Assembly (NCBI RefSeq): GCF_014279775.1
Contig: NZ_CP047961.1
Coordinates: 1,240,001-1,304,000 of the forward strand
Direction of reading: 5' to 3'
DNA from: Synechococcus sp. PROS-9-1
GTDB taxonomy: Bacteria; Cyanobacteriota; Cyanobacteriia; PCC-6307; Cyanobiaceae
Length of the DNA stretch: 64,000 nucleotides
Positions 18,528 to 20,997 of this stretch are shown piece after piece (position 1 is the stretch's first letter; each line of letters opens with the position of its first letter). The notes under the pieces are model-generated. The model was given only the letters and a program-made list of their open reading frames with translations. It did not search any database and was not told the origin of the DNA. Position numbers and translations under genes: made by a program.

Positions 18528-19292
18528 GATTAGAAACCTGGTGATCAGAGGCCGTACTTGCGAGCAAAGCTGTTGTGATTGCGACCATGGCAACGGAGTT
18601 GATTGTGCAATTCGCAAAATCGTCTAATTGCATCCTTCGTTGATCCGACTTGATCCGCAATGACAACTCTGATGAGGCTGATCAGTTGGTGCAAATCACG
18701 AAAAGTTCAACGATTGGCAGTTGTCTTCGTGAACCGATAAGACGCCACCGTTGGGCAAGAAAGGTTCATCTTTGATCGGTTGTCAGCATGACGATGGATT
18801 CAGTAGTGCCTTGCAGATGCCTTTCATCCACAAACGATCCATCAACCGACGCCTTAGCGCTGAGGCACGCCATTCCTAATTTCGGTGGTTTTTGCTGTGA
18901 TGGCAATGCGCCTTTACACCGATGGCAAGTGTGCGCTGTTGGCACAAACTATGGACATCGAGATCGGAGGCGCTTTGACAGACGACACTCCACCTGAGTC
19001 ATCAGCAGAAGCAAGCTGACTTCAGGTCCCTGCTCCAACAGTCTCAACAAGACGTGGGTTGTTCCTTTGGTAGGCAATGCCTTGCGCGCCATGCCAATCG
19101 ATGCTCCATCTGCACCGTCTTAGGTGCCCTACGGAGAACACGACCCCACACCTAGAGCCCCGGCCCCAGGTGATCCTGCAGACAGTCGCTTCGCACCACC
19201 CCTTTCAGTTCACTGTGTTCGATACGAGGTTCAGGCTTCCGCGATACAGGTTCACTGATTAATGGTTTGCGATATGCATAAACGAGCGAGTT
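18528..19292. other. Mostly non-coding region
   Basis: About 765 bases. Apart from one possible 39-codon ORF (18900-19019) I see no gene with supporting features. The stretch leads into the RNA-rich region that follows. Confidence 0.45.
18900..19019 (+). CDS. Possible very small protein (39 aa)
   Basis: ATG at 18900 to TGA at 19017. The peptide MAMRLYTDGKCALLAQTMD followed by IEIGGALTDDTPPESS has a plausible short fold followed by an acidic, proline/serine tail. No clear ribosome-binding site. An upstream GTG extension is possible. Could easily be chance. Confidence 0.28.
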   Translation: MAMRLYTDGKCALLAQTMDIEIGGALTDDTPPESSAEAS

Positions 19293-19324
19293 AGGCCGTC
19301 TCTTCCATCCGGGAGGGGCGGCCT
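19293..19324 (+). promoter_or_regulatory. Strong 14-bp hairpin in a putative 5' leader
   Basis: Bases 19293-19306 (AGGCCGTCTCTTCC) pair with 19311-19324 across a four-base loop, allowing a few G-T pairs. There is no T-run after it, so it is not a terminator. It lies 17 bases before a well-placed ATG at 19342 with a GGAGGGG ribosome-binding site, so it may be a 5' UTR structure or part of a small RNA. Confidence 0.55.
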
Positions 19325-19341
19325 CTCTTCATGGAGGGGCA

Positions 19342-19569
19342 ATGCTGAAGTACAGCTACATCCCCGCGATGCATAACTATCAGCAATTAATGCAATATCA
19401 CCAAAGTTTCACCAGTGTTCAGCAGGGTATGTATCGCTACAAACAAAAACATGGACATAGAAGATCCTTTGCGCAGCGGCATCGAGCTGCTGACAAAAGG
19501 GAGAGCACGAGCGGCCTGAGAAACCGCTCGTTTTTTTGGCCATTATTCATGACTGATGCCGCTGTCTGA
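19342..19569 (+). CDS. Possible small Tyr/Gln/His-rich protein
   Basis: The ATG at 19342 is preceded by GGAGGGG at ideal spacing. The peptide starts MLKYSYIPAMHNYQQLMQYH and has further Gln/Tyr/Lys residues (GMYRYKQKHGHRRS), then becomes arginine-rich. The frame runs straight through a strong terminator hairpin at 19508-19537, so the C-terminal 20 codons are unlikely to be translated from a full transcript; a frameshift or a true RNA gene are alternatives. Confidence 0.35.
   Translation: MLKYSYIPAMHNYQQLMQYHQSFTSVQQGMYRYKQKHGHRRSFAQRHRAADKRESTSGLRNRSFFWPLFMTDAAV
19508..19537 (+). terminator. Intrinsic terminator, plus strand
   Basis: CGAGCGG (19508-19514) pairs perfectly with CCGCTCG (19524-19530) across a nine-base loop and is followed by seven T residues. 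It closes the short transcription unit that begins near the hairpin at 19293. Confidence 0.8.
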
Positions 19570-19613
19570 CGGAATCCGATAAGACTGCCTTCCGGGCATC
19601 CAGATAACGGAAG

Positions 19614-19704
19614 ACAAAAGAAAACCCCGCCAAAGGCAGGGTTTCTTGGCTTCTCGTAGGACGTGTTGCCTTGTTTCCACTCCGTGAAGAAGCCCTCCTC
19701 ACCC
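19614..19704 (-). ncRNA. Yfr2-family-like small RNA, copy A
   Basis: Reading the minus strand from about 19704: a 7-bp stem (GTGAGGA/TCTTCAC), then a second stem-loop GGAGTG...CACGTCC whose loop carries GGAAACAAGGCAA, then a terminator stem AAACCCTGCC/GGCGGGGTTT followed by TCTTTT. The GGAAACA loop motif is the hallmark of the cyanobacterial Yfr2 RNA family. A promoter-like TTGCAC (19736-19731) and AAGATA (19714-19709), 16 bases apart, lie just upstream. Length about 90 nt. The assignment is from motif and fold by eye. Confidence 0.62.
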
Positions 19705-19759
19705 AACTATCTTGAGTGACTGGAAGCATCGTGCAAGACACGTCTTGTCACTTGTTGGA

Positions 19760-19790
19760 TTGCCACAAAGCTTGGCCATTGACTTATAAA
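19760..19790 (+). promoter_or_regulatory. Promoter of Yfr1-like RNA copy 1
   Basis: TTGCCA (19760-19765) and TATAAA (19785-19790) form a sigma-70-like promoter with a 19-base spacer. Transcription would start at about 19796, exactly at the first base of the predicted 5' stem of the RNA. Confidence 0.55.
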
Positions 19791-19795
19791 GAAAC

Positions 19796-19863
19796 GGTCA
19801 ACTCCTGACCAAGGATTGACTCCTCACACCCCCTAAAGAAGGCATCAAACACCTTCTTTTTTT
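19796..19863 (+). ncRNA. yfr1: Yfr1 small regulatory RNA, copy 1
   Basis: Yfr1 is a short cyanobacterial trans-acting RNA whose unpaired ACUCCUCACAC element base-pairs with porin mRNAs. Here the architecture is complete: 5' stem GGTCA/TGACC (19796-19810), an unpaired stretch with the exact element GACTCCTCACAC, then a terminator stem AAAGAAGG/CCTTCTTT and seven T residues. Length is about 68 nt. A promoter lies directly upstream. Confidence 0.85.
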
Positions 19864-20164
19864 ATGTCTATAAAAAATTTTCATCTTTAGAGCACACTCC
19901 GCTGCCAGCGGGTGGCCTGAATGGCATGCAAACTCTGTAAAAACAACCAAGCAAAGCCGATCAACACTCACGCAATTCAAGGAGAGTGATTGAACCAAAA
20001 CCCCACAAAGGGCGCACATTCCCTCTTGTTGGACAGGTTGCCTTGTTGTTTCCGTCTCCAGAAGACGCCATCTTCAAGTGAAAAACGACGCCGACATCTA
20101 AGCAAACACGTCTCTACGTATCAGTTGGTTGACTGAGTGGCACATTCTTATCGAATATGGAAAA
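19864..20164. other. Spacer between the two Yfr1-like RNAs
   Basis: About 300 bases with no protein-coding gene. It holds the second Yfr2-like element on the minus strand and the promoter of the second Yfr1-like RNA (TTGACT at 20129 and GAATAT at 20153, 18-base spacer). Confidence 0.5.
19993..20080 (-). ncRNA. Yfr2-family-like small RNA, copy B (diverged)
   Basis: The minus strand repeats the order of copy A: a GAAGA/TCTTC stem, a second stem-loop region GGAGACGGAAACAACAAGG ending CCTGTCC with the CGGAAACA motif, and a G/C-T-rich end (CCCTTTGTGGGGTTTTGG). The second stem has mismatches and the terminator is weaker than in copy A, and the promoter (TAGATG near 20100) is poor. It may be a decaying duplicate or a working divergent copy. 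Confidence 0.48.
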
Positions 20165-20228
20165 GCCATCTCCTCACAAGATTTGGCTCCTCACACCCCC
20201 GAAGAAGGCGGATTCGCCTTCTTTTTTT
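20165..20228 (+). ncRNA. Yfr1-like small RNA, copy 2
   Basis: Second Yfr1-like RNA about 300 bases after the first. A 5' stem GCCATCT/AGATTTGGC (bulged) encloses CCTCACA; it is followed by an unpaired GGCTCCTCACACCCCC, then the terminator stem GAAGAAGGCG/CGCCTTCTTTT and a T-run. The core element is GCTCCTCACAC, one base away from canonical ACTCCTCACAC, and CTCCTCACA occurs a second time in the 5' loop. A TTGACT/GAATAT promoter precedes it. Confidence 0.68.
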
Positions 20229-20233
20229 ATGCC

Positions 20234-20341
20234 ATGGCATTGCACCAAGGCGATCCCCTGTGTGACCTTTCGATTAACGATTGGCTTGATGCGATGGCCC
20301 AAGGTCTCTTCATCAGCCTGAAAACGATGGTTGTCGCATGA
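20234..20341 (+). CDS. Possible leader ORF overlapping ruvA (35 aa)
   Basis: ATG at 20234, six bases after the T-run of the Yfr1-like RNA, to a TGA at 20339-20341 that overlaps the ruvA ATG. The peptide MALHQGDPLCDLSINDWLDA and AMAQGLFISLKTMVVA looks protein-like and helical. If translated it would couple to ruvA. It has no visible ribosome-binding site because the terminator ends immediately before it; expression would need read-through or a leaderless start. Confidence 0.35.
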   Translation: MALHQGDPLCDLSINDWLDAMAQGLFISLKTMVVA

Positions 20342-20997
20342 TTGGCTGGCTGCAAGGAGAACGAATCGAACACTGGAGTCAGGGCGGTCGTCAGGGATTG
20401 GTCATTGCTTGCGCTGGTGTGGGATATGAAGTTCAACTGGCTTCGAGGTACCTGCAACCTCTCTCCGCTGGGACCACCTGCACCGTCTGGATTCATCAAG
20501 TTCAAAGGGACGATGGCTCGAGTTTGTTTGGCTTCCCGGATCGAAGGGAACGGGACTTGTTTCGAGTTCTGATCAGCGTGAATGGTGTCGGTCCTCAAGT
20601 GGGACTGGCGTTGCTGGAGAGCTGCAGCGCTGCAGAGTTGATCGAAGCGATCATCGATGGAGACCTGCGTCGCCTCACCCAAGCTCAGGGCGTCGGGAAA
20701 CGCACAGCAGAACGCCTTGCGGTGGAGCTTCGCGATCGGCTGAGTGGCTGGAGTGCAGAGCGAGAAAGTGATCGTTCCGACCTCTCCTTGGTGGACAGGA
20801 GTGATCTCAAATCACTGCCAATTGAACCCGACCCACTGCAAGATTTACAGCTCACCCTCAACACACTGGGGTATGAGGATTTAGAGATCCGTCGCGCCAT
20901 GCGCGCAGTCGCCACAGGGCAAGAGGTCCCGGCATCGGATGACGGGGATGGGTGGTTACGCGCCAGTCTGCGATGGTTGAACCGGCCTTCGGCGTAA
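20338..20997 (+). CDS. ruvA: Holliday junction branch migration protein RuvA
   Basis: RuvA tetramers bind the four-way junction and load RuvB to drive branch migration in recombinational repair. The 219-residue protein has the N-terminal OB-fold (MIGWLQGERI, ACAGVGYEVQL), two helix-hairpin-helix motifs (LISVNGVGPQVGLALL and LTQAQGVGKRTAERLAVELRD), an acidic linker, and the C-terminal RuvB-binding domain (TLNTLGYEDLEIRRAM). Normal length. It precedes rpsO by 56 bases. Confidence 0.96.
   Translation: MIGWLQGERIEHWSQGGRQGLVIACAGVGYEVQLASRYLQPLSAGTTCTVWIHQVQRDDGSSLFGFPDRRERDLFRVLISVNGVGPQVGLALLESCSAAELIEAIIDGDLRRLTQAQGVGKRTAERLAVELRDRLSGWSAERESDRSDLSLVDRSDLKSLPIEPDPLQDLQLTLNTLGYEDLEIRRAMRAVATGQEVPASDDGDGWLRASLRWLNRPSA

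Follow-up and report, generated by a model that had tools for sequence, protein, structure and literature searches.

Results

Organization of the locus upstream of ruvA

The window analyzed here is a 64,000-nucleotide stretch (G000:C1:1240001-1304000) of a marine Synechococcus-like genome consisting of a single contig of 2.27 Mb. About 2 kb upstream of ruvA contain no convincing protein gene; ruvA itself (20338..20997, plus strand; Pfam RuvA_N, HHH_5 and RuvA_C) is the downstream neighbor and fixes the synteny of the locus. From left to right, this region harbors an intact Yfr2 (Rfam Cyano-1; 19644..19708, minus strand) with its intrinsic terminator (GAAACCCUGCCUUUGGCGGGGUUUU-CUUUU; 19614..19646, minus strand; terminator scan and fold), the intergenic region between the divergent yfr2 and yfr10A (19709..19795), Yfr10A (19796..19863, plus strand), a Yfr2 relic (20011..20095, minus strand), a conserved upstream element of yfr10B (ACGTATCAGTTGGTTGAC; 20116..20133, plus strand) and Yfr10B (20164..20228, plus strand).

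Just upstream of the cluster lies a dispersed repeat of ~490 bp (window 18861-19348), present in five copies in this genome, of which one is 100% identical (C1:667055), two are 75% identical and one is a partial copy of 85% identity; the repeat is 93.6% identical in G001. It has no Rfam match. A short reading frame in it (MAMRLYTDGKCALLAQTMDIEIGGALTDDTPPESSAEAS) is conserved, with IEIGGA and DTPP retained in the other copies, and the repeat ends in a conserved terminator-like hairpin.

The plus-strand RNAs belong to the Yfr10 type

The initial annotation read the two plus-strand RNAs as Yfr1-type. Their presence at 19796-19863 and 20164-20228 is borne out by a motif search, which finds exact CTCCTCACACCCC at 19820 and 20187, one per RNA, and exact CTCCTCACAC in both, as well as by RNA folding z-scores of -3.96 for Yfr10A and -4.27 for Yfr10B. 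Both fold as a stem-loop, a linker and a terminator, with a terminator hairpin and T run at their ends. In Yfr10B, a first CUCCUCAC occupies the loop and a second CUCCUCACACCCCC the linker; in Yfr10A, whose stem-loop is GUCAA/UUGAC, the loop motif is mutated to CUCCUGAC and only the linker copy CUCCUCACACCCCC is left.

The Yfr1 label, however, has to be abandoned. The Yfr1 model RF01116 matches neither RNA, even at E<=10, and as a positive control it recovers the canonical Yfr1 of this genome with 69.2 bits, which rules out a Yfr1 identity. This canonical copy is located between guaB (IMP dehydrogenase) and trxA (thioredoxin), the position of most Yfr1 homologues (PMC6778093), whereas Yfr10A and Yfr10B are found upstream of ruvA. 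The two RNAs share with Yfr1 the CUCCUCACAC motif and the order stem-loop, linker, terminator, but neither presents the unpaired linker of 16-20 nt with ACUCCUCACAC between two stem-loops that defines Yfr1 (PMC2190773). The 11-mer ACUCCUCACAC is present in Yfr10A and replaced by GCUCCUCACAC in Yfr10B; in the minimum free energy folds the first motif nucleotides are paired, in Yfr10A within the stem, and the free linker of Yfr10A is shorter than 16 nt.

Yfr10, Yfr12 and Yfr18 of Prochlorococcus MED4 are Yfr1-motif RNAs that adjoin Yfr2-family genes (PMC2518516, PMC6778093), and Yfr10 has also been detected in Synechococcus WH8102 (PMC6778093). Likewise, both plus-strand RNAs carry the Yfr1 motif outside the Yfr1 locus and adjoin Yfr2 genes: Yfr10A is 111 nt from the 5' end of Yfr2 and Yfr10B lies beside the relic. 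They are thus Yfr10-type RNAs, not Yfr1. A model built from 28 homologues (R1) scores Yfr10A at 80.6 bits and Yfr10B at 82.1 bits, both being members of its training set.

One intact Yfr2 and one relic

Two Yfr2-like elements had also been proposed on the minus strand. The Yfr2 model RF01701 aligns over its full length to the first, at 19644-19708, with 60.6 bits (E 4e-8; gathering score 41), including the 5' GUGAGGAG motif and the GGAAACAAGG loop, and this intact Yfr2 is the only Rfam sRNA of the window at gathering thresholds. The second element, at 20011-20095, does contain the GGAAACA element (minus strand, ~20037-20056) and aligns to Yfr2 with a score of 48, the maximum of 1000 dinucleotide shuffles being 35; on the basis of this alignment, it is a true Yfr2 homologue, beyond chance. 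Unlike the first, it gives no match to RF01701 at E<=10, the position of its 5' GUGAGGAG motif reads CUUGAAGAUG, its loop bears a 3-nt insertion and its fold is no more stable than those of shuffled sequences (z -0.15). The Rfam covariance models to which the initial annotation looked for support therefore single out the first minus-strand element alone, the Yfr1 model matching neither plus-strand copy.

Predicted pairing further distinguishes the two elements. RNAduplex without accessibility was uninformative because it returned large energies even for the relic, and opening energies were added. The corrected energies with the intact Yfr2 are -13.1 kcal/mol for Yfr10A and -12.7 kcal/mol for Yfr10B, as compared with -8.9 and -9.1 for the best of 40 shuffles, a strong predicted motif-to-motif pairing between Yfr10 and Yfr2. 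The relic reaches only -4.3 and -4.5 kcal/mol, respectively, the same as its own shuffles. A second working Yfr2 at 20011-20095 is ruled out by the missing covariance match, the lost motif, the fold and the shuffle-level pairing; this second minus-strand Yfr2 is dead, a relic.

Different upstream elements for Yfr10A and Yfr10B

The upstream regions of the two yfr10 genes are unrelated. The one shared by yfr2 and yfr10A is 74-84% identical to that of relatives and includes the palindrome CAAGACACGTCTTG (from 19734), kept in G024, G006 and G021 and found, with the following T (CAAGACACGTCTTGT), once in the genome, as well as a TATAAAG upstream of yfr10A. The yfr10B element is common to the two dispersed yfr10 genes of this genome: a genome-wide search for exact CGTATCAGTTGGTTGAC yields only three occurrences, one for Yfr10B and one for each of these two genes (M2, M3, M4), and the surrounding region is 80-87% conserved. 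A CGRE1/GntR site is known in MED4. Because no consensus sigma-70 site was found at the locus, we infer from conservation only that 19709..19795 is the shared promoter region of yfr2 and yfr10A and that the yfr10B element is a promoter or activator site. The idea that these sRNA paralogues specialise, put forward in the initial annotation, gains support from these different upstream elements and from the presence of one antisense motif in Yfr10A versus two in Yfr10B.

Synteny and conservation

Synteny was surveyed in 31 genomes of the genus, eight of which, the window genome included, form a subclade in which RuvA identity is 87% or more. In all eight of these closest genomes, Yfr10 sits just upstream of ruvA, either accompanied by Yfr2 or alone; in G002, neither was found upstream of ruvA. 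The fullest arrays are those of G006 and G021 (Yfr2|Yfr10, ~1.3 kb, Yfr2|Yfr10A, Yfr10B, ruvA). G024 has the outer module together with Yfr10A and Yfr10B, G001 and G007 combine Yfr10B with A modules that have decayed and with an outer module in which Yfr2 remains but Yfr10 has lost the motif, G027 retains Yfr10A only and G015 retains two Yfr10. No similar cluster was found in phage records.

Yfr10B is 85-100% identical in five relatives, while the spacer before ruvA is only 32-41% identical. Several species have orthologues of each of the two Yfr10 RNAs upstream of ruvA and, as judged from these comparisons, Yfr10A and Yfr10B are separate lineages. As for the intact Yfr2, its left flank can be aligned with the corresponding flank of the outer module in G024 (87%), G001 (78%) and G007 (74%), and its body shares 95% identity with the outer Yfr2 of G001 versus 78% with the A copy of that genome, although the copies of G006 and G021 do not discriminate between an outer and an A origin (88-91% vs 90%). 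Its right side, in turn, matches module A. In the simplest reading, the intact Yfr2 appears to derive from a third, more upstream (outer) module that was joined to Yfr10A by a deletion.

These matches of flank, body and right side indicate that the order Yfr2-Yfr10-Yfr2-Yfr10 goes back to an older array reshaped by deletion and decay, and not to one tandem duplication. The initial annotation was right in that a module of Yfr2 and a Yfr1-motif RNA has been multiplied and its copies have diverged. If one Yfr2-Yfr1 module had simply been duplicated in tandem at this site, leaving four working sRNAs, the homology between the two halves would be accounted for (79% over 68 nt on the plus strand, 83% over 24 nt in the minus-strand elements); we nevertheless regard this scenario as improbable, since the second Yfr2 is a relic, RF01116 is silent, Yfr10A and Yfr10B have their own orthologues and differ upstream, and Yfr10B matches the dispersed M3 and M4 from the upstream element to the terminator (80% over 128 nt).

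An equally doubtful proposition is that Yfr10A is itself decaying, so that only Yfr10B and the intact Yfr2 work. It would fit with the mutated loop motif and with the decay or deletion of Yfr10A in G001 (72%) and G007 (22%). However, in G024, G006 and G021, where the spacer between Yfr10A and Yfr10B is only 28-55% identical, the Yfr10A orthologues retain 94-96% identity. The linker motif, the stem and the terminator of Yfr10A are preserved, and its predicted pairing with Yfr2 is as strong as that of Yfr10B. Lastly, a role of the minus-strand relic as something other than a Yfr2, be it a leader, an antisense or a spacer transcript, could explain its 60-69% identity to G001 and G007 and the recognizable, if weaker, remnant in G007, but is hardly credible for an element that is deleted in G024, G006 and G021, shows no folding signal and pairs like shuffled sequence.

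A divergent Yfr2/Yfr10 module across the genus

The survey covered 108 Yfr2 loci in the 31 genomes. At 35 of them, the strand opposite Yfr2 carries CTCCTCAC at a distance of 100-115 nt from the 5' end of Yfr2, the chance expectation for this divergent set being ~0.03 (16 positions x 108 loci / 4^8). The motif is convergent with Yfr2 at five of the 108 loci. Of 35 aligned Yfr10 copies, 23 have an exact CTCCTCAC both in the first hairpin loop and in the linker, and this two-motif layout is constant across differing stems (GCCAA/UUGGC, GUCAA/UUGAC, GUUGG/CCAAC and GAUCAACU/AGUUGAUC). The loop reads CUCCUGAC in Yfr10A and in its orthologues of G024, G027, G006 and G021, which leaves them with one working motif.

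RNAalifold returned only four pairs for the mixed alignment of close and distant copies, owing to the misalignment of stems of unlike sequence; covariation was thus assessed with the structure named on close relatives instead of the RNAalifold consensus. In the close clade, 95.5% of the stem cells are paired, versus 29-64% with the partners slid, and a compensatory C-G to U-A change is present in 10 of 25 distinct sequences; these figures count sequences and not independent events, of which a small number may underlie the compensatory change.

Convergent arrangements of Yfr2 with a Yfr10-like RNA occur in another subclade (L131, L142, L103, L066 and L135, in G010, G029, G005 and G019), and four of these five loci have two motifs on a different, longer hairpin stem.

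The window genome itself has five Cyano-1 matches, two of which, besides that of the window, are accompanied by a divergent Yfr10 (M3 and M4). Each of these other two divergent Yfr2/Yfr10 modules (L044 and L041; C1:1833.2-1833.9 kb and 877.4-878.1 kb) is contained in a segment of ~660 bp whose two copies are almost the same in sequence; on this sequence identity, it is a recent segmental duplication. The segment has two tiny reading frames of 43 and 31 aa, neither with a Pfam match. At L004 (C1:1231989-1232053, plus strand), a Yfr2 match of 50.3 bits is above the Rfam cut-off with a fold z of +0.85; it seems to have lost the 3' arm of its stem as well as its terminator, and is probably another decaying Yfr2.

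Discussion

Based on the above data, the locus upstream of ruvA is best described, with good though not complete confidence, as the product of deletion and decay in an earlier array of divergent Yfr2/Yfr10 modules, which has left a pair of working Yfr10-type RNAs (A and B) and two copies of Yfr2, one working and the other dead. An ancestral array of such modules would have stood upstream of ruvA; a deletion would then have joined the outer Yfr2 to Yfr10A, the Yfr2 beside Yfr10B would have decayed, and A and B would subsequently have diverged.

Yfr10 has been described as poorly conserved in both synteny and structure (PMC6778093). The RNAs of the window resemble MED4 Yfr10 in having a Yfr1 motif outside the guaB-trxA locus, a Yfr2-family gene beside them and pairing with Yfr2, predicted here and demonstrated in MED4. 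They differ in orientation, Yfr10 being divergent from Yfr2 here whereas in MED4 it is upstream on the same strand (PMC2518516), and in architecture: the motif of MED4 Yfr10 is in a loop atop a stem, in contrast to the Yfr1-like stem-loop, linker and terminator found here, with two motifs in Yfr10B and one in Yfr10A.

In MED4, Yfr2 was shown experimentally to bind Yfr1 and Yfr10 and to relieve Yfr1 repression, and RNase E cuts Yfr2 unless it is bound (PMC6778093). For the present locus, we infer transcription, promoters, targets and titration, the latter by analogy with MED4. Yfr10A and Yfr10B would present the anti-Shine-Dalgarno-like sequence CUCCUCAC(AC) and would most likely pair with purine-rich mRNA sites. 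The 5' end of Yfr2 would expose the complementary GUGAGGAG and would most likely thereby titrate Yfr10 as well as Yfr1. Divergent transcription from the short intergenic region could ensure that the antagonist and the sRNA are made together and that titration is local, and A and B would differ in their regulation and in their number of binding sites. Local pairing of Yfr2 and Yfr10 is not obligatory, since Yfr10 copies without an adjacent Yfr2 persist in G024, G027 and G015.

More tentatively, and with the odds somewhat against it, Yfr10 of marine Synechococcus could be a two-site RNA, in which the anti-Yfr2 motifs of the hairpin loop and of the linker are both selected, on wholly different stem sequences; within the window, Yfr10A would have lost the loop site and Yfr10B kept it. 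If so, one Yfr10 could hold two partners simultaneously, either Yfr2 together with an mRNA or a pair of Yfr2 molecules, and Yfr10A and Yfr10B would constitute a natural one-site/two-site pair under different promoters.

Yfr1, Yfr2 and Yfr10 are cyanobacterial sRNAs of wide occurrence. Across the genus, the survey reveals a Yfr2/Yfr10 module that is compact, divergent and fixed in its spacing, a conserved two-motif Yfr10, and module copies that are repeatedly born and lost. It offers a test bed for how the balance between an sRNA and its RNA antagonist is kept as copies are gained and lost, for which the window provides a matched pair of diverged Yfr10.
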